Below, piece by piece: positions 5,409 through 12,746 of a DNA stretch of 64,000 bases. The stretch comes from Thermotoga sp. Mc24 (GTDB lineage: Bacteria; Thermotogota; Thermotogae; Thermotogales; Thermotogaceae): the NCBI RefSeq assembly GCF_000784835.1, contig NZ_JSFH01000012.1:124001-188000 (forward strand), read 5' to 3'. The position numbers and the translations under genes are program-made. Position 1 is the stretch's first letter. Each line of letters starts with the position of its first letter. A model generated the notes under the pieces. That model saw nothing but the letters and a program-made list of their open reading frames with translations, was not told the DNA's origin and ran no database searches.

Positions 5409-6827
5409 TTGAGACAATACAAGAAACTGGCAGTGAATACTTTTCTTTTTGCTATAGGAAATATCGGTTCACAAAGTATAATTTTTTTGATGTTACCAAT
5501 TTTTACCAGATACATGATCCCAGAGGATTTTGGTAAACTAGATGTCATAAATACAACTGTTTCACTACTAGCCCCAATTCTTTCACTCCAGATCATCGAA
5601 GCGGTTTTCAGGTTCACTGTTGAGTTTCGCAAAGAACAAAAAAGTGAAGATCTTCTATCTTCTGCTCTCCTTTTTTCAACAATTGCAATCGTTTTTTCTT
5701 TGTCTCTTCATCCAATTCTTACAAAAATAAGCATTTTCTCGAAGTACAGTACGTATTTCTACGCAATTTTCTATCTTACAATTCTCGGGGGAATTGTAAG
5801 ACAGTACATCCGTGGCATCGCAAAAATAAAATTGTATGTAACCAGTGATATTCTTTATTCTATCATTTTTTTCACAAGTAATTTGATACTCCTTGTTGGA
5901 CTTAAACTCGGAGTGGAAGCATATCTTCTGTCAAATATTTTGGCTTTGCTGATTTCTTCACTGTTCATAATAATATTTGCTGGTTTGCACAAGCAGATTC
6001 GTTTGAAATTGAACAAAAATCTTCTGAAAGAGATGCTCATCTACTCTGTCCCATTAATACCCAATGGCATTATGTGGTGGATCATTTCCGCAGCAGACAG
6101 ATACATAATTGCGTATTTCCTCGGCTACGAATCGATAGGTATTTATTCTGTAGCAGCAAAATTTCCAGGTTTACTGACTGTGCTGTACAGAATCTTCTTT
6201 CAAGCTTGGCAACTTTCATCAATTGAAGAATATGGTAAAGAAAGCTATGGTGTCTTTTTCGGAAGGGTCTTTGGTGTAATTTCAAGTATCATGTTTCTCC
6301 TATCTTCGCTGTTCTTTTTGATTGTTAAGCCCTTCATGAACATGTTTGTTGGTGAAGCTTTCGTAGAAAGCTGGAAATATGTACCATTTCTTTTCCTTGG
6401 GGCAGTGTTTCACACTTTTGCTTCATTTTACAGTGTAAACTACACGGTATCAAAGAAAACTATTGGAGCCTTTTCAACTTCAGCTATTGCGGCAGGAGTA
6501 AAACTCACATCTATACTTACGTTGATAAGATTCCTCGACATCCAAGCGGCTTCTGTCTCTTCCTTTCTAGCGTATCTTTCCATGTGGATTGTAAGGGTTT
6601 TTCACACAAGGAAAATTGTAAAAGTGGAACTTGATGTAAAACATGTTGTAATCTCTTCTACTATAGTGCTTTCACAGGCGATCCTTCTACTGATGATCAA
6701 AAACACCTTTTTATTGTACGCTCTTCAAGCAGTTCTTTTGACAATCCTTCTATGGAATCAAAAAAAGTACATATCAAAAGTCGTCAGATTTGGCCGATCA
6801 TTCGTTGAATCAAAAGCAAATAAATAA
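5409..6827 (+). CDS. Wzx-type polysaccharide flippase (MOP superfamily)
   Basis: Membrane protein of 472 residues with about 12-14 hydrophobic segments and the polysaccharide-synthase profile: N-terminal FAIGNIGSQSIIFLMLPIFTRYM, a central IYSVPLIPNGIMWWIISAADRYII and YESIGIYSVAAKFPGLL. It would flip undecaprenyl-linked repeat units across the inner membrane. Starts at TTG 5409 with AAGGAG (5394-5399) in good position, six bases after the previous stop, so it is the last gene of the cluster starting at 2989. A second flippase lies at 9172-10575. The two are family relatives but clearly different proteins. Confidence 0.88.
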   Translation: MRQYKKLAVNTFLFAIGNIGSQSIIFLMLPIFTRYMIPEDFGKLDVINTTVSLLAPILSLQIIEAVFRFTVEFRKEQKSEDLLSSALLFSTIAIVFSLSLHPILTKISIFSKYSTYFYAIFYLTILGGIVRQYIRGIAKIKLYVTSDILYSIIFFTSNLILLVGLKLGVEAYLLSNILALLISSLFIIIFAGLHKQIRLKLNKNLLKEMLIYSVPLIPNGIMWWIISAADRYIIAYFLGYESIGIYSVAAKFPGLLTVLYRIFFQAWQLSSIEEYGKESYGVFFGRVFGVISSIMFLLSSLFFLIVKPFMNMFVGEAFVESWKYVPFLFLGAVFHTFASFYSVNYTVSKKTIGAFSTSAIAAGVKLTSILTLIRFLDIQAASVSSFLAYLSMWIVRVFHTRKIVKVELDVKHVVISSTIVLSQAILLLMIKNTFLLYALQAVLLTILLWNQKKYISKVVRFGRSFVESKANK

Positions 6828-7023
6828 ACCGAAAAGATTGAAATATACAAAATTCAAAGTTGGTCTCACAACCATTTTCACCGGTGTTCAGGGATAAATG
6901 TTTTTCTTTGTTGTTCAGAAATTTGGCAAATGAACTTATTTCGAATTTATAACAATGATTTTTCCAGAACTCTTTACAAATCTTTTTTAGCAAAGCTTGG
7001 TATTTTTCAAATACTCTTCAAAA
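6828..7023. other. Gap between the first flippase and a bidirectional terminator
   Basis: No convincing gene on either strand. Short open frames here (for example one on the plus strand from 6930) have no RBS and no recognisable protein character, and run through the hairpin at 7024-7044. Confidence 0.5.
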
Positions 7024-7044
7024 GAGGAGGGATGATCCTTCCTC
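7024..7044. terminator. Bidirectional hairpin terminator
   Basis: Inverted repeat GAGGAGGGAT / ATCCTTCCTC, followed by TTTTT on the plus strand (7046-7050) and by CTTTT on the minus strand. It sits four bases past the last small minus-strand ORF (7049-7174), which supports that ORF being the end of a transcribed cassette. Confidence 0.65.
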
Positions 7045-7048
7045 GTTT

Positions 7049-7174
7049 TTATGCTGTCTGCTTTTTCCATAAAGTTTGGTTCAGAAAATCTACTAAATTG
7101 TCGATCATGAAATTAAGGACAATGGCTGGTATAGGCAGCCTTATGTTGAAATCATTCAGAAAATCGAAAATCAT
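7049..7174 (-). CDS. Small 41-residue hydrophobic protein, fourth gene of the small-gene cassette
   Basis: Not recognised. Its ATG overlaps the stop of the upstream small ORF in the ATGA form (7171-7174), which argues for translational coupling. The sequence begins MIFDFLNDFNIRLPIPAIVL and continues with a mixed hydrophobic/acidic stretch ending WKKQTA, compatible with a short membrane-associated or amphipathic peptide. A hairpin terminator follows directly. Holin-like small proteins are one possibility, but nothing specific supports it. Confidence 0.4.
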   Translation of the reverse strand: MIFDFLNDFNIRLPIPAIVLNFMIDNLVDFLNQTLWKKQTA

Positions 7175-7281
7175 TTTTTGGCTTTCTCTTTCTTGTTCAC
7201 CTCATCCTTAGGTCTTTCCACAAAAAATACACCCAATGCCACGATTCTTCCAATAACTTGAAAAGTCTCAAACAGATTCAT
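7171..7281 (-). CDS. Small 36-residue protein, possibly YvrJ-like
   Basis: Begins MNLFETFQVIGRIVALGVFF and ends in a charged Lys/Glu-rich tail: one short hydrophobic segment and a polar C-terminus. A GAGGAAG RBS lies just upstream (about 7290-7296). It follows the DUF2922-like gene by 12 bases. In Firmicutes the tiny YvrJ membrane protein often follows DUF1659 and DUF2922 genes. Position and architecture fit that, but the sequence similarity is too weak to be sure. Confidence 0.4.
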   Translation of the reverse strand: MNLFETFQVIGRIVALGVFFVERPKDEVNKKEKAKK

Positions 7282-7293
7282 TCAATCACTTCC

Positions 7294-7511
7294 TCAGAGT
7301 AAGTTGAAAAATTCATAAGAGGTTGTTTCTACTATCGCTGTTCTGTCTTTTACATAAGTACCTGAGTACCTGGCACTACTTCTAGGCTTATGAACACATC
7401 CATTGCATTTGAAACTTGCCGGCTTGTTGGATCTTCTTTCGTTGATTGAATAGTTATCCTTCTTCTTTTACCTCCCACTTGATTCACAAAATCAAGAAAC
7501 AACCTTTTCAT
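7294..7511 (-). pseudogene. DUF2922-like gene frameshifted by an 8-bp tandem duplication
   Basis: From ATG 7511 the frame reads MKRLFLDFVNQVGGKRRRIT, then STKEDPTSRQVSNAMDVFI and SLEVVPGT, and stops at 7350. The next frame continues GTYVKDRTAIVETTSYEFF NLL and stops at 7294-7296. The shift lies exactly at two adjacent copies of AGTACCTG (plus strand 7357-7364 and 7365-7372). Removing one copy restores a single 69-residue frame, the usual DUF2922 length. Family features seen: a short beta-rich start, the (K/R)xDxT...V..AMD..I block and the (V/A)(K/R)DRT near the end. Function of the family is unknown. RBS GTGGAAGTGGG upstream. Confidence 0.55.
7357..7372. repeat. Perfect 8-bp tandem duplication (AGTACCTG x2)
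   Basis: AGTACCTG at 7357-7364 is repeated without spacer at 7365-7372, inside the DUF2922-like gene. Eight bases are not a multiple of three, and the reading frame changes precisely here. Confidence 0.9.
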
Positions 7512-7530
7512 TTCCCACTTCCACACCTTC

Positions 7531-7722
7531 TTACATAACCTGCGTGGTGACTATCAAGTAAACTTCCTGGACAGTGTAGTTTGTAAGAGTAGCTATAATC
7601 TGAGCTATTTGCGTAGTCTTTGTAGAATCTACAGTCTATATCGATGTTGTTTCTGTTTATGACAGGACTACCTGTTTGTGACAGTTCACCAGTGTTGTAA
7701 ACAATTCTGAGTCGACTACCAT
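7531..7722 (-). pseudogene. DUF1659-like gene with two compensating frame shifts
   Basis: A good RBS (AAGGAGG, plus-strand 7727-7733) precedes ATG 7722, which reads MVVDS. A different frame then reads RLRIVYNTGELSQTGSPVIN followed by RNNIDID. The original frame resumes with VDSTKTTQIAQIIATLTNYT and VQEVYLIVTTQVM, ending at 7531. The pieces in order match the DUF1659 pattern: (V)DS(R/K)LR(I/V)x(Y/F)xTGxxxxGxPxxxxxxxxI, then a helix xxxIAxxIAxLxxYxxxEVY. Total span is 192 bases (63 codons), divisible by three, so about one deleted base near codon 6 and one extra base near codon 27 would explain it. Family function unknown. Confidence 0.5.
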
Positions 7723-7994
7723 AACACCTCCTTAAATTTTTTGGAGCACCCGGGTTTTTCTCCCAATAATGCATTATGTAGAATGCCCTTTCCTTTGAAC
7801 ATCACAGTAAAAATGACGTTTTTCTGGGGAAAATCCCTTGTTAAAGCTTGTTCTGGAACTTAGTTTAGACTAATAAAAGGTAATGATGTATTTGTTCTTT
7901 ACTCATGCCTGTTTCAGCAAACGCACCAACTTGTGTTATCTATGTAGTAGAATTTATCCGGTAAATTTAATTCAAGTCTTGTTGGGGGGAAAAG
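7723..7994. other. Divergent gap between the small-gene cassette and the second GT4
   Basis: Holds the RBS of the DUF1659-like gene (7727-7733) on the minus strand and the GGGGGG-rich RBS (7983-7989) of the plus-strand GT4. No gene seen. Promoters for both directions must lie here or nearby, but I see no convincing paired -35/-10 elements. Confidence 0.4.
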
Positions 7995-9170
7995 ATGAAA
8001 ATTTTAGTGATCACAAACCTTGCACCAACCAATAGTAACCCTATGGCCGGGATATTTGTGGTGAAAAGGCTTGAGCAATTTATAAAATTTGGTGTTGATT
8101 ATTTTGCCGTATCGCTTGGTTTTGAAGATGATTGGCCTGCAAAGCTGACAAGGAAAATACTGAGGAAAAATCCTGTCACACCTTTGAATCGAATGGGAAA
8201 AGTGGAATTTACACCAATTTTGATTCGGCGCAGCCTTGCAAAAACGATTTTGTTCAAAACAGGCTTGATATCCTATTATGGATTGAAATATTCAAATAGA
8301 ATAAAATCACTCCTTGAAATTAGCAAATTCGACCTCATACATGCTCATGGTATGTACTCAATTCCTGCCGGAGAGATTGCGTATCTTCTAGCAAAAGAAT
8401 ACAACAAGCCTTTTGTAATAACATTGCACGGCAGTGATGTGAATTTGCTAATGCCAAAAAGAAAAGAAAGATACATTGAGATCCTTGAAAATGCCTCAAG
8501 ATGTATCTTTGTAAGCAGAGCACTCCTTGAAAAGGCAAAATCTTTTGGATACTCTGGACAGAACGCTGTTGTGATACCAAATGGGTACGATCCAGATGTG
8601 TTCAAACCCATGGACAAAAATGCCGTGAGAAAAGAACTTGGAATATACAAAGAAAACACACACTACGTGGGCTTTGTTGGAAATCTTATCCCCATAAAAA
8701 GGGCAGATAAACTTCCTGAGATATTTGGGAAAATAGCGAAGGAACTTCCCAACACCAGATTTTTGATCGTTGGAGATGGAGTGTTGAAAGATAAAATACT
8801 AAAAGAGATGAAAGGACTCGATGTTGTCTTTACTGGAAGGGTGGTGCAGACAAAGGTTGCAAAATATATGAACGCAATGGACGTGATGGTGCTTCCAAGC
8901 AGAAATGAAGGCTGGCCTTGTGTTGTCCTTGAAGCCCAAGCTTGTGGAACGTGTGTGATAGGAAGCAGCAATGGAGGAATTCCAGAAGCAATAGGCTTCG
9001 AAGAGTATGTGGTGGAAGAGGGAGAAAACTTCGAGGACAGATTTGCCAGAAAAATGGTTGATGTTCTAAAGAGTGGCTACGACAGAAACAAATTGATAGA
9101 AAGAGCAAAGAGATTCACATGGGAAGAGATTGTGAAAAGGGAAATAAAAATTTACAACCAGGTGGGATGA
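7995..9170 (+). CDS. Glycosyltransferase family 4 (intact copy)
   Basis: Complete 391-residue GT-B enzyme. Visible: FDLIHAHGMYSIPAG (112-126), VITLHGSDVNLL (141-152), IPNGYDPDVF (194-203), the donor-domain start VGFVGNLIPIKRADK (225-239) and the E-x7-E motif with Glu305 and Glu313, followed by CGTCVIGSSNGGIPEAIG. It is a close paralogue of the gene at 97-1194, including near-identical DNA in the donor-binding region. It abuts the second flippase (stop at 9170, next ATG 9172), so the two form a module. Likely adds one sugar to a lipid-linked repeat unit on the cytoplasmic face; specificity unknown. Confidence 0.9.
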   Translation: MKILVITNLAPTNSNPMAGIFVVKRLEQFIKFGVDYFAVSLGFEDDWPAKLTRKILRKNPVTPLNRMGKVEFTPILIRRSLAKTILFKTGLISYYGLKYSNRIKSLLEISKFDLIHAHGMYSIPAGEIAYLLAKEYNKPFVITLHGSDVNLLMPKRKERYIEILENASRCIFVSRALLEKAKSFGYSGQNAVVIPNGYDPDVFKPMDKNAVRKELGIYKENTHYVGFVGNLIPIKRADKLPEIFGKIAKELPNTRFLIVGDGVLKDKILKEMKGLDVVFTGRVVQTKVAKYMNAMDVMVLPSRNEGWPCVVLEAQACGTCVIGSSNGGIPEAIGFEEYVVEEGENFEDRFARKMVDVLKSGYDRNKLIERAKRFTWEEIVKREIKIYNQVG

Positions 9171-9171
9171 A

Positions 9172-10575
9172 ATGAAACAGTATATAAAGGGATTCCTTTC
9201 GTTTTCTGCTGGCACATGGATCCGTGCTATTGTTAGCTTTTTTTCTACTCCCGTCATAAGTTATCTGATTGTTCCTGAAGAGTTCGGAAAAGCAGCCATG
9301 TTCACACTCGTTTATAACATCGCTCTTCTTGTTTCTCTAACAGGGCTCGATCAGAGTTTTGTGAGATATTATTACCAAGAAGAGAAAAGGAATGAGTTGT
9401 TCTGGAGTTGTGTATTTTTACCTTTTACTTTTGGTATTTCTGTATCCCTTATTTTCATTCTTTTCGAGTCTCATCTTAGTCTGATTCTTTTCGGAAAAGA
9501 CTATCAAGGAATAGGACTTATTTTCTCCATCTCTCTTATGACGGGCATCTTCCAGAGGTTCAACCAACTCTCTATCAGAATGCAAAAGAGAGGAGTTCTC
9601 TATTCTATACTTGATGTAGTGAATTCTCTTGGAAACGTGGGAGGAACCATAGTTTTTGCTCTGACTGTTTCAAAAAGTTTTTATGCTGTTGTCTGGGGAC
9701 AGATCTGTGGAAACGTATCAGCTCTGGTTTTGGGTTTTATCACCGACAGAGAGTCACGGAAGTTCGCGAAGGTAAATTTCAAAAAAATAGGAGAGTTCCT
9801 AAAGTACGGTTTGCCGCTTCTTCCGAATTCTCTCCTATTCTGGCTTTTTTCTTCAATAGACAGAATTTCCCTGAGACAGTACTCAAATTTCACAGAGATA
9901 GGACTCTACAGTGCGGCTTTCAAGATAGTCTCTGTGATGCAGCTGTTTCAGGCAGGTTTTACCACATTTTGGGTACCACTTGCTTATGAAAAATATGAAT
10001 CCCAGCCCGATTCCAGAGAATTCTTTAAAAAGGCAAATCAAATGGTGAGCCTCACCATATTTTTATTTGGTCTTCTTGTTCTTTCCTTCAAGGATGTGAT
10101 CTTCTTGCTCTTTGCCAGAAGTTACAGAAATGCATCTTTCATTGCTCCTTTTTTGATTCTACAGCCGATCATGTACGTTATATCGGAGACAACGGTTCTT
10201 GGGATAAACTTCACAAAAAGGACATACTGGCACATCGTTGTGACCGGACTTTCTGCCCTGGCCAATTTTGCAGGAAACCAGCTTCTTGTTCCATACCTTG
10301 GTGCAAAAGGTGCCGCCATATCCACAGGTCTTTCATATGTTCTTTTCTTCACCCTCAGAACACTCATAGCCGAGAAACTTTATCCGATCGGTTTTAACCT
10401 GAAGAAGATCTACGCTGGTGTCCTTGTTGTCTTACTGATAGCATTTTTTGGAACTTTCCTGCAAAATTCCCTGATCTTTCCTCTTTTATCCGTCGCAGGG
10501 ATGTTTCTTATCTTGCTTCTGTACAGAGACGAGATGATCTATCTGAAAAACCATTTCAAAAACCTGCACAGGTAA
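9172..10575 (+). CDS. Wzx-type polysaccharide flippase (second copy)
   Basis: Membrane protein of 467 residues with about 12-14 hydrophobic helices: N-terminal FLSFSAGTWIRAIVSFFSTP, FGKAAMFTLVYNIALL, and a central FLKYGLPLLPNSLLFWLFSSIDRISL that mirrors the PLIPNG...DRYII block of the first flippase. RBS GGTGGGATG precedes ATG 9172. Base composition is nearer to the chromosome average than that of the 2-7 kb part, so this GT4-Wzx module may be the older resident one. Function inferred: export of lipid-linked oligosaccharide. Confidence 0.88.
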   Translation: MKQYIKGFLSFSAGTWIRAIVSFFSTPVISYLIVPEEFGKAAMFTLVYNIALLVSLTGLDQSFVRYYYQEEKRNELFWSCVFLPFTFGISVSLIFILFESHLSLILFGKDYQGIGLIFSISLMTGIFQRFNQLSIRMQKRGVLYSILDVVNSLGNVGGTIVFALTVSKSFYAVVWGQICGNVSALVLGFITDRESRKFAKVNFKKIGEFLKYGLPLLPNSLLFWLFSSIDRISLRQYSNFTEIGLYSAAFKIVSVMQLFQAGFTTFWVPLAYEKYESQPDSREFFKKANQMVSLTIFLFGLLVLSFKDVIFLLFARSYRNASFIAPFLILQPIMYVISETTVLGINFTKRTYWHIVVTGLSALANFAGNQLLVPYLGAKGAAISTGLSYVLFFTLRTLIAEKLYPIGFNLKKIYAGVLVVLLIAFFGTFLQNSLIFPLLSVAGMFLILLLYRDEMIYLKNHFKNLHR

Positions 10576-10581
10576 AAAATC

Positions 10582-10682
10582 TCAATCAGCCTCCACCAGG
10601 GCCAGAAACAGCCATGCGGGAATACCTACGATACCTTCGTCTTTGAAGATGGTATCCTGGGTGATGAGAATTTCCCTTCAAC
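10582..10682 (-). pseudogene. C-terminal remnant of an unidentified gene
   Basis: On the minus strand a 30-odd codon frame ends at TGA (10582-10584). It contains ILITQDTIFKDEGIVGIPAW then LFLALVEAD, which is protein-like in composition and codon use. A stop lies just upstream in frame and no start is present. I do not recognise the family. Confidence 0.35.
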
Positions 10683-10700
10683 TATACCAAACCGTTCGAA

Positions 10701-10722
10701 TTTATCGAACACATTCGATAAA
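10701..10722. promoter_or_regulatory. Palindromic operator-like site 1
   Basis: TTTATCGA-N6-TCGATAAA, perfect 8-bp arms, dyad centre 10711.5. The flanks CGAA (left) and CTCG (right) extend the resemblance to site 2. Lies about 150 bp upstream of the ATPase TATAAT box. Confidence 0.6.
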
Positions 10723-10732
10723 CTCGTACGAA

Positions 10733-10754
10733 TTTATCGATTACGATCGATAAA
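10733..10754. promoter_or_regulatory. Palindromic operator-like site 2
   Basis: A second TTTATCGA-N6-TCGATAAA with the same arm and spacer length as site 1, dyad centre 10743.5, exactly 32 bp (about three helical turns) from site 1. Two identical dyads on one face of the helix suggest cooperative binding of a dimeric regulator. Confidence 0.6.
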
Positions 10755-10804
10755 TATCTACAGGTTAAAACCAGTCCGAGCATCGAAAGTGTTTTCTGAA
10801 GTCT

Positions 10805-10849
10805 GTCGAACCTGTCCGGTGTCTGTCGAGTTTGTCGAGGGTGTCGAGA
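10805..10849. repeat. 45-bp direct repeat, left copy
   Basis: Begins GTCGAACCTGTCCGG and ends TTGTCGAGGGTGTCGAGA; rich in TGTCGA. Matches 12074-12118 at 40 of 45 positions by eye, in the same orientation, so the two copies bracket the AAA ATPase gene and its promoter. Confidence 0.75.
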
Positions 10850-10868
10850 CGGTAACAGGAATTTGTAG

Positions 10869-10874
10869 TATAAT
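10869..10874 (+). promoter_or_regulatory. -10 box (TATAAT) of the AAA ATPase gene
   Basis: Perfect TATAAT 36 bases before the GTG start. At 17-bp spacing the -35 position falls in the end of the left direct repeat (CGAGAC), which is not a consensus -35; activation may be needed. Confidence 0.5.
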
Positions 10875-10909
10875 CTAAACAAAACAGAAAATAACACAGG
10901 GGTGATTTT

Positions 10910-12067
10910 GTGAAGCAAACAGTGGCCGATCTTTTGAGTGTTCTGGTGGACAGACCGCTCAGAGAAGGCGAATCAGAATATCTGGTGGACAGGGCCAGGG
11001 AGATAAACTATCTGAACTCAATAGCACTCCACCAACCTTTTGGGATCGTGGGTGTTTCTGGAGAAACGGGCATTGGAAAAACGACGGTACTCAACTTCGT
11101 GAACCCGGAAGGAGTCTTCACGGTCAGGGTGAACATCTCGCTCAGAGACTCCATGGAGAGTATACTCTACGATCTTCTGCACAGTCTGGCGCTTTCCCTG
11201 GAGAAGGTGGAGGGAGTGTCGGATCTTGCAAAAGAGGTTAGAAAGTGGATAACGGATGAAGTTTCAACCATAAAAGGCTTTTCCCTCGGTGTTTCCTTTG
11301 GTGTGAACGCCAGCCTGACACATGAAAAATCGATCAGACCGAGGTTCAATTTCTTCAAAGCCAGAGAAAAGCTCGGAGAACTGATAAAACAGACGGTTCA
11401 GAGAAAAGGAAAATTCCTTCTGATCATAGACGAACTGGACAAGGAAAAGAAAGAAGACGTTCTCAGGGTGATAGATTCGATAAAGAACTTCATCATCATG
11501 GAGGACTTTGTCGTCATACTTTCTCTTCCCTTTTCTATATACCGAGAGTACGCTGCCGACAGACTGAGATGGAACGAAGCAGGAAATCTGGAAAACATAT
11601 TCACAGACATCGTTTTTGTTGAGCCTCTGAAGAAACTTGAGATCAAAGAGTTGATCATCAAAAGGCTTGGATCTTACATTGAACTCATCGAAGACGGAGT
11701 GCTCGATATAGTGGCCGATTTTTCCGATGGAAACCCAAGAGACGGCCTGTGGATACTGACAAAGGCGATCTACGACAACATTCACAAGGAACTGTTGAGT
11801 AAAGAGGATCTGATCAACACGATCAACAGGACGATATCAGAGTACACCGGGCTGACTCTGAACCTGACAGAAAACCAGAAAAAGGCCATTCGAATCCTGA
11901 GAGGTTCTGTCTACACCAGAGAAAAGATCATAGAAACACTTCAGAAAGAGGGCTTCAAGCGAACAACGGCGTACTCAGTCATGGATCAACTCATTCAAAA
12001 GCGAATACTCCTTGTTGAAAAAGAAGGCTACAGGATCTCTGGAAAGTTCAGTTACATGGAGATCTGA
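10910..12067 (+). CDS. AAA+ ATPase with C-terminal winged helix (STAND/ORC-like), function unknown
   Basis: 385 residues. Walker A GETGIGKT (51-58), Walker B FLLIIDELDK (169-178), a sensor region (FVVILSLPFSIYREY), a lid domain (EPLKKLEIKELIIKRLGSY, FSDGNPRDGLWIL) and a C-terminal winged-helix DNA-binding domain (NLTENQKKAIRILRG, EGFKRTTAYSVMDQLIQKR). This order is that of ORC/Cdc6-like and archaeal STAND ATPases found in mobile islands. GTG start with GGGGTGA upstream; the TATAAT box is 36 bases before it. The gene is bracketed by 45-bp direct repeats and preceded by twin palindromes, so it looks like a self-contained, regulated insertion. Role could be defence, replication or regulation; not decidable here. 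Confidence 0.75.
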   Translation: MKQTVADLLSVLVDRPLREGESEYLVDRAREINYLNSIALHQPFGIVGVSGETGIGKTTVLNFVNPEGVFTVRVNISLRDSMESILYDLLHSLALSLEKVEGVSDLAKEVRKWITDEVSTIKGFSLGVSFGVNASLTHEKSIRPRFNFFKAREKLGELIKQTVQRKGKFLLIIDELDKEKKEDVLRVIDSIKNFIIMEDFVVILSLPFSIYREYAADRLRWNEAGNLENIFTDIVFVEPLKKLEIKELIIKRLGSYIELIEDGVLDIVADFSDGNPRDGLWILTKAIYDNIHKELLSKEDLINTINRTISEYTGLTLNLTENQKKAIRILRGSVYTREKIIETLQKEGFKRTTAYSVMDQLIQKRILLVEKEGYRISGKFSYMEI

Positions 12068-12073
12068 CGGTTC

Positions 12074-12118
12074 GTCGAACCCGTTCGGCGTCTGTCGAGC
12101 CTGTCGAGGGTGTCGAGA
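12074..12118. repeat. 45-bp direct repeat, right copy
   Basis: Begins GTCGAACCCGTTCGG and ends CCTGTCGAGGGTGTCGAGA; same orientation as 10805-10849. It starts 7 bases after the ATPase stop codon and ends just before the 3' end of the MNT gene. Confidence 0.75.
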
Positions 12119-12121
12119 TTT

Positions 12122-12472
12122 CTATAACGCTTTATAAACAACCACTCCACCCTCGATCATCTTCGAGATGGTCTTTTCCATCTGTTTGTATTCACTCAGA
12201 GAGTAGACGTGCGGTTCCAGTCCTTTCAATTTGATGGTCCTTTTCACTATTTTATAAGCGTCTTCTCTGAACGGGTCTTCGTACACGACAAGAAGATCGA
12301 CATCGCTGAAGACGGTGAAATTTCCCTTCGCATAAGAGCCGAAAAGTACCACAAGTCTCACAGGAAGTTTCTTCAGGAGTTGTGGAAGGGAATTCCTGAT
12401 GATTCCCAGGACCTTTTCCCTTTTATATTCTGGATAGAAGATCTTCGCAGAATCGGATGATCTTTTCAGCAT
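12122..12472 (-). CDS. MNT-type nucleotidyltransferase (HEPN/MNT module)
   Basis: Minimal nucleotidyltransferase of 116 residues. The signature G-S-x10-D-x-D is present: Gly45-Ser46, Asp57 and Asp59 (FGSYAKGNFTVFSDVDLLV). In HEPN/MNT toxin-antitoxin pairs the MNT enzyme neutralises the HEPN RNase, in known cases by adding AMP to it. The gene overlaps the HEPN gene by 50 bases; no usable start exists closer to its stop, so ATG 12472 is kept. Same operon as HEPN, with MNT second. Confidence 0.8.
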   Translation of the reverse strand: MLKRSSDSAKIFYPEYKREKVLGIIRNSLPQLLKKLPVRLVVLFGSYAKGNFTVFSDVDLLVVYEDPFREDAYKIVKRTIKLKGLEPHVYSLSEYKQMEKTISKMIEGGVVVYKAL

Positions 12473-12683
12473 AGTTCACCAGCCTTTCGGCTTCAATTCT
12501 GGAATACCTGTTTCTGGGGGAGCCGGAAGGAAGGGCATCCGGATACCTTGTGGGGATACAAGCTTTGTCCAGTTCAAGGGCATGGTCCATGAGTTCTTCA
12601 GGGATTTCAAAGTGTCTGGAAAGTTCTTCGAGCAGATCTGCTATGGAACGTTCCCATGCCTGTGCTCCCATTTTCTGGAACAC
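12423..12683 (-). CDS. HEPN domain protein, N-terminally truncated
   Basis: C-terminal two thirds of a HEPN protein: KMGAQAWERSIADLLEEL, IPEELMDHALELDK, the conserved TRYPDALPSGSPRNRYSR and a final helix. It is close to T. maritima TM0613, a HEPN protein of known structure. In that family a first helix and SQQAAEKAVKA precede this. Here SSQQAAEKAVKAVFQKMG is still encoded in frame upstream of GTG 12683, but the first helix is gone and no ATG/GTG/TTG precedes it before an in-frame stop near 12760. So about 30 N-terminal residues have been deleted. The product may be inactive, or start from a rare codon. Confidence 0.7.
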   Translation of the reverse strand: MFQKMGAQAWERSIADLLEELSRHFEIPEELMDHALELDKACIPTRYPDALPSGSPRNRYSRIEAERLVNYAEKIIRFCEDLLSRI

Positions 12684-12746
12684 GGCTTTTACGGCTTTTT
12701 CTGCTGCCTGTTGTGAAGAAAAGTAAGTAGAGATTTTCTCGTGATT

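Follow-up and report, generated by a model that had tools for sequence, protein, structure and literature searches.

A decayed, horizontally acquired copy of a Thermotogota DUF1659-DUF2922 cassette in Thermotoga sp. Mc24, 15 kb from an intact resident copy

Which gene set left the run of very short reading frames on the minus strand of a polysaccharide locus in Thermotoga sp. Mc24, and is it still alive? The frames lie in an analyzed stretch of 64,000 nucleotides (the window), and a first-pass annotation had read them as DUF1659, DUF2922, YvrJ and a new 41-residue gene, once a single unit ending at a hairpin terminator. Our analysis identifies the locus as a defunct cassette of the Thermotogota type, gained by horizontal transfer, with the order promoter, palindrome, DUF1659, DUF2922, ORF3 and sigma_r2; the genome's own cassette is intact and lies 15 kb away. 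We hold this identification with high confidence, which applies to the identity of the cassette alone and does not extend to the mechanism of the living cassette. The annotation correctly placed the locus in a polysaccharide setting and related it to the DUF1659-DUF2922 set; the sigma-70 region-2-like fourth gene, the intact own copy and the horizontal transfer of the window copy go beyond it.

Remnants of four cassette genes

The core of the decayed cassette occupies window positions 6947-7722 on the minus strand. Its full extent is approximately 6947-7770. On the downstream side this takes in a truncated sigma-like gene, and on the upstream side a leader whose promoter has been deleted. The reference for the alignments was G076, a Pseudothermotoga-like genome from another family of the same order. 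The following features were assigned:

7743..7769, minus strand: remnant of the cassette leader, based on the alignment with G076 and the conserved leader
7748-7755: leader palindrome ACCCGGGT, kept in the window copy
7768/7769: site at which the promoter core TCATTCGTATACTATA (16 nt), present in G076, is absent from the window
7531..7722, minus strand: DUF1659 pseudogene with start codon ATG at 7720-7722 and RBS AAGGAGG at 7727-7733; its intact homologue is G076 C1:1248978-1249172
7294..7511, minus strand: DUF2922 pseudogene (PF11148, 32.3-33.9 bits), with the first 45 profile positions in frame
7171..7281, minus strand: N-terminal half of ORF3 (the annotated 36-aa ORF), A3 profile positions 1-36, E 1.5e-6
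7049..7174, minus strand: C-terminal half of ORF3 (the annotated 41-aa ORF), A3 profile positions 32-78, E 2.3e-10
6947..7070, minus strand: what is left of the 5' part of the sigma-70 region-2-like gene, with a frameshift and the remainder deleted; G076 homologue C1:1248150-1248518
7024..7044, plus strand: hairpin GAGGAAGGATCATCCCTCCTC within the sigma-like coding remnant, terminator-like on the plus strand only
6827..6934: additional collinear G076 match (90%) past the point where a deletion cuts the sigma-like gene short
7995..9170, plus strand: glycosyltransferase gene, intact and part of the same transferred block; its protein is 88% identical to that of G076 (omega 0.12)

The window copy fits the cassette order of the Thermotogota, with all four genes present as remnants, the palindrome kept and the promoter core lost. 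The DUF1659 and DUF2922 pieces described on the minus strand proved to be real. In the profile searches that had been suggested as a check, the DUF2922 piece scored 33.9 bits against a PF11148 cut-off of 25.5 and YvrJ gave no match, while the DUF1659 piece reached only 15.8 bits over its last 28 positions (PF07872 cut-off 24.1); the latter is identified by its full-length alignment with the intact DUF1659 gene of G076. Also present are the RBS AAGGAGG and the two ORFs of 36 and 41 codons, which overlap by ATGA.

Every cassette gene in the window is broken. Alignment with G076 revealed at least six lesions across the four genes in addition to the promoter deletion. The earlier view that a complete unit once existed here and has since decayed was right. 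The DUF1659 pseudogene has lost 1 nt beside the start codon and a further 5 nt, which broke its frame, and an 8-nt tandem duplication (7355-7370) disrupts DUF2922. ORF3 lacks 1 nt of an A run and, in frame, another 12 nt. In the sigma-like gene, a 1-nt loss is followed by one of about 285 nt. Between the window remnants and G076, omega was 0.35 (Nei-Gojobori), a value that also covers functional time in the donor line, compared to 0.05-0.10 between intact cassettes.

A search of the source assembly located the genome's own intact cassette at C12:115488-116976, outside the window. It encodes the following proteins:

DUF1659, 64 aa, 47.4 bits
DUF2922, 69 aa, 55.6 bits
Third ORF, 77 aa, without a Pfam family, corresponding to the two annotated tiny ORFs combined
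Sigma-like protein, 123 aa, sigma-70 region 2 (PF04542), 29.4 bits (cut-off 24)
Glucosaminidase, 135 aa, 81.7 bits, with a sugar transferase gene next to it

A second cassette copy can thus decay while the resident copy stays intact.

A single third gene and a sigma-like fourth gene

The 36- and 41-codon ORFs had been taken for two separate tiny genes. Profile comparison assigns both to a single 80-aa family (A3 profile: 26 relatives, 80-position model), in which ORF3 reads through as one ORF in all 26 aligned relatives. In the window this gene was split by a one-base deletion, and the loss of 1 nt in the A run accounts for the apparent pair of genes with an ATGA junction. Since the two ORFs are halves of one gene, there is no new fourth gene here, and the 41-aa ORF is the C-terminal half of gene 3. 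YvrJ as the third gene was ruled out by profile as well: neither window ORF and none of the ORF3 family members matched PF12841 (cut-off 29.5 bits), and 0/103 Thermotogota genomes contained a YvrJ over this cut-off. As a positive control, plasmid YvrJ proteins scored 57-62 bits.

ORF3 shares a G-x-x-KK-x-x-V stretch with the LLH holins (superfamily 6, PF09682 / phrog_6918). At E up to 0.5, PF09682 matched 8/26 members (best 0.013) and phrog_6918 matched 13/26 (best 0.0043), but these scores are weak and lie below curated cut-offs. Hydropathy is borderline, as only 13 of the 26 members contain a stretch of sufficient hydrophobicity to form a membrane helix, and the combination of a clear PF09682 score and an N-terminal transmembrane helix that would place ORF3 among the LLH holins was not found.

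The true fourth gene codes for a sigma-70 region-2-like protein (PF04542) and is truncated in the window. PF04542 was matched by 16/20 relatives at E up to 0.01; region 4 was present in one of the 20 aligned proteins, and the family does not qualify as complete sigma factors. At its C-terminus, the protein at L083 (G027) carries a helix-turn-helix similar to region 4, which most of its relatives lack. The supposed terminator after the cassette lies within the 5' coding part of the sigma-like gene, which is intact in G076, and the hairpin is followed on the cassette strand by TTTTG only.

A separate protein with sigma region 2 only is also known from SigO-RsoA of B. subtilis, where such a split region-2 protein can act and where the pair transcribes its own operon as well as yvrJ, so that a neighbouring tiny gene is involved there too (PMC8103513). 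In the Thermotogota cassette, by comparison, the intact loci that were read showed no separate gene for a SigO-like region-4 partner, and the likeness to RsoA consists of the shared region-2-only layout. The annotated alternative sigma factors of T. maritima are RpoE, SigH and FliA (PMC3636130), so the region-2 protein of the cassette is not counted there.

Origin of the window copy

The window cassette came from a Pseudothermotoga-like relative by horizontal transfer, together with an exopolysaccharide segment. Window and G076 are collinear over 6827 to 9154. G076 C1:1248394-1249399 matches window 6947-7929 at 84% DNA identity, 1248002-1248109 matches 6827-6934 at 90% identity, and 1250551-1251966, in the region of the neighbouring glycosyltransferase gene, matches 7792-9154 at 85% identity; more pieces up to window position 12119 match at 89-94%. 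Other Thermotoga genomes carry one DUF2922 copy or none, and the window cassette segment had no match in them except a single one of 36 bases at E 0.003. As judged from the window copy, the cassette travels between genera with exopolysaccharide genes. Part of the stretch is shared with a Thermotoga genome at 94% identity, and therefore inter-genus transfer and exchange within Thermotoga were probably both involved. The shared part, window 8465-12723, matches genome G007 in inverted order and sits in a variable polysaccharide island, with conserved backbone flanks near -4900 and 19700 in window coordinates.

Three other explanations of the window copy were considered. That it is a decayed duplicate of the genome's own cassette might be suggested by the location of the copies, since a single polysaccharide region contains both, with about 15 kb between them. 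However, the DNA identity to the G076 cassette extends to the leader and the neighbouring glycosyltransferase gene, whereas the own cassette is far more diverged from the window copy and differs from it in the leader; the collinear G076 match rules out an origin by duplication, which we consider extremely unlikely. Equally hard to sustain is the original reading as DUF1659, DUF2922, YvrJ and a new 41-aa gene ending at the hairpin. Start codons, RBSs and the ATGA overlap do exist, but both tiny ORFs belong to one family, YvrJ is missing over cut-off from all 103 genomes of the phylum and the hairpin falls inside the next gene. Finally, the window copy could still be active via programmed frameshifting at the A run, as AAAAAA beside the stop is a slippery-looking site. 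The other lesions, at least five in number, the truncated sigma-like gene, the deleted promoter and the raised omega of the remnants speak against this, which makes it very improbable.

The living cassette across Thermotogota

A survey of the phylum for intact cassettes, also proposed in the first-pass annotation, bore out its expectation that other Thermotogae have them: DUF2922 is present in 82/103, ORF3 in 84/103 and both in 78/103 Thermotogota genomes. The co-occurrence is significant (Fisher p 3.9e-10), with a p value that overstates independence, as the genomes are related. In 43 loci, we counted 39 DUF1659, 38 ORF3 and 33 sigma-like matches, with a few loci holding two of one kind, and most of them show the order DUF1659-DUF2922-ORF3-sigma. 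A glucosaminidase adjoins the cassette only in Thermotoga and one related genus among the 43 loci examined. In some genomes the cassette is split. For example, ORF3 and the sigma-like gene lie apart from DUF1659-DUF2922 at L133 (G070:C1:1616569) and L113 (G072:C1:1049941), with promoter and palindrome retained, and in both genomes the two halves have the same kind of leader. In G005 (L047, about 10020-10320 on the cassette strand), DUF1659 of the single resident cassette is apparently split into two ORFs by a frameshift.

Searches beyond the phylum gave few leads. AlphaFold models of DUF2922 (pLDDT 87.7) and DUF1659 (93.3) had no PDB match at E <=0.001 in a fold search, the Thermotogota DUF2922 query retrieved nothing from viral contigs, phages or plasmids, and PADLOC returned no match for the cassette proteins. 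Judged by titles and abstracts, no paper describing the cassette was found in the open library searched. Through the Thermotogota version, the functionally uncharacterized families DUF1659 and DUF2922 gain links to a sigma-factor-like regulator and a defined promoter, and in Thermotoga to a cell-wall enzyme as well; together these links open the way to direct functional tests.

Leader, promoter motif and dispersed elements

Upstream of DUF1659, the leader consists of TATACATYCGTATACTATATATTGG or a lineage variant, followed by a GC-rich palindrome, an A-rich stretch and the RBS. The longest leader palindrome averages 10.5 bases, compared to 5.9 in shuffled sequence, and its core varies by lineage (AGCGCT, GGCGCC, GGCC, TGCGCA, GGCCGC, TCGA, CCCGGG) with the symmetry kept. 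The palindrome is mostly centred 28-47 bases upstream of the start codon, and its first base follows that of the CGTATACT motif by 13-25 bases. For T. maritima, a 7-bp spacing to the transcription start is reported (PMC3636130); applied here, this would place the palindrome at the beginning of the transcript or close to it.

The promoter motif occurs at 23 sites in G077, with 0 for the reversed pattern, and at 5-9 sites each in G070, G076, G078 and G079. The genus Thermotoga has a different motif, and the Thermotoga-type pattern showed no excess over its reversed-pattern control in Thermotoga genomes. In Pseudothermotoga genomes, about 35 dispersed elements share the motif and palindrome of the cassette. 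These non-cassette sites are mostly elements of about 80 bp with a TGTTA box, CGTATAMTATATWWTGG and one or two perfect palindromes that vary between copies (e.g. L180, L188, L190, L197, L203); in g9 genomes they have a conserved 3' end, CATAGGTCTAATC. Over 42 sites, a few of which are cassette leaders, palindrome content was 598 compared to 61.6 (sd 22.4) in shuffles, a significance that is overstated because copies with common flanks are non-independent. Thermotoga genomes contained none of the dispersed elements, and Rfam held no family for the leader or the elements. Small dispersed bacterial repeats of the MITE/RU type (PMC2229807) are likewise short, occur repeatedly within a genome and contain inverted repeats; the Pseudothermotoga elements differ from them in having a cassette-type promoter-like core and palindromes that change from copy to copy.

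Possible working of the living cassette

We tentatively propose that the living cassette is a self-regulating unit, a reading that we regard as possible rather than probable. The sigma-70 region-2-like protein would direct RNA polymerase to TGTTA-N13-CGTATAMTATATWWTGG ahead of its own operon, and the transcript would open with the short palindrome, which may act at the level of the transcript. The operon would yield two small beta-alpha proteins (DUF1659 and DUF2922), a small amphipathic protein with weak LLH holin likeness and, in Thermotoga, a glucosaminidase. Given these small proteins, the holin-like protein and the glucosaminidase, the site of action is probably the cell envelope, and the surface polysaccharide may be involved. 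Several points speak against this mechanism: the sigma-like protein has no region 4 in most genomes, the adjoining glucosaminidase is confined to Thermotoga and one related genus, the holin scores are weak, and the genus Thermotoga has a different motif and no dispersed sites. The reader of the motif could also be another sigma factor. By extension, most Thermotogota may have a so far unrecognised alternative-sigma system, in which a region-2-only sigma-like protein reads TGTTA-N13-CGTATAMTATATWWTGG; in Pseudothermotoga, its regulon would include the approximately 35 dispersed elements as short transcription units that each start with one or two perfect palindromes, variable in sequence but constant in pairing. 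This wider proposal is speculative to a similar degree.

An alternative explanation, to which we assign a considerable chance, if somewhat below even, is that CGTATACTATATATTGG is an ordinary housekeeping promoter, that the dispersed elements are unrelated mobile repeats and that the sigma-like protein acts otherwise, e.g. as an inactive or regulatory sigma relative. The -10 of the motif is TATACT-like, the housekeeping motif of T. maritima is sigma-70-like and often has an extended -10 (PMC3636130), and the dispersed elements resemble a repeat family with copied flanks. Against this, the TGTTA box about 13 bases 5' of CGTATA does not fit a 17-bp spacing, the motif is present again where the cassette is split, and its count in G077 exceeds the reversed-pattern control. 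The living cassette might alternatively be a relict phage lysis module of holin and lysin kept by chance, in line with the weak LLH-holin likeness of ORF3 and the adjoining glucosaminidase in Thermotoga. This we find improbable, as purifying selection on intact cassettes is strong, the cassette is found across most of the phylum and no DUF2922 relatives were found in phage records or viral contigs.

Comparable gene sets on Bacillota plasmids

On plasmids of Bacillaceae we found the order DUF1659, DUF2922, YvrJ and peptidoglycan hydrolase (e.g. NZ_CP085722, NZ_CP051164), and in two plasmids the gene before DUF1659 is ComK-like (PF06338, 25-33 bits). These matches are real annotated records, obtained only with a Bacillota-like DUF2922 probe, a generic consensus sequence; matches on Paraclostridium sordellii plasmids were left out of the comparison as possible toxin plasmids. 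As in the Thermotogota, DUF1659 and DUF2922 are adjacent, in that order, and followed by a very small third gene, and genes for a cell-wall hydrolase and a transcription factor lie close by. However, the third gene is YvrJ in Bacillota and an unrelated-looking 80-aa ORF3 in Thermotogota, and the regulator is ComK-like in the former and sigma-70 region-2-like in the latter. The CGTATACTATA leader motif was not seen in the Bacillota plasmid loci. Based on this gene order, DUF1659 and DUF2922 occur alongside a regulator and a wall enzyme in both phyla, while the third genes differ. The Firmicutes plasmids would follow the same logic using other parts, namely a ComK-like regulator, DUF1659, DUF2922, YvrJ and a peptidoglycan hydrolase. 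In the Geobacillus and Parageobacillus plasmids at L157, L159 and L160, a gene related to the ComK-like one lies directly 5' of DUF1659-DUF2922-YvrJ-peptidase, and the copy at L159 looks frameshifted.
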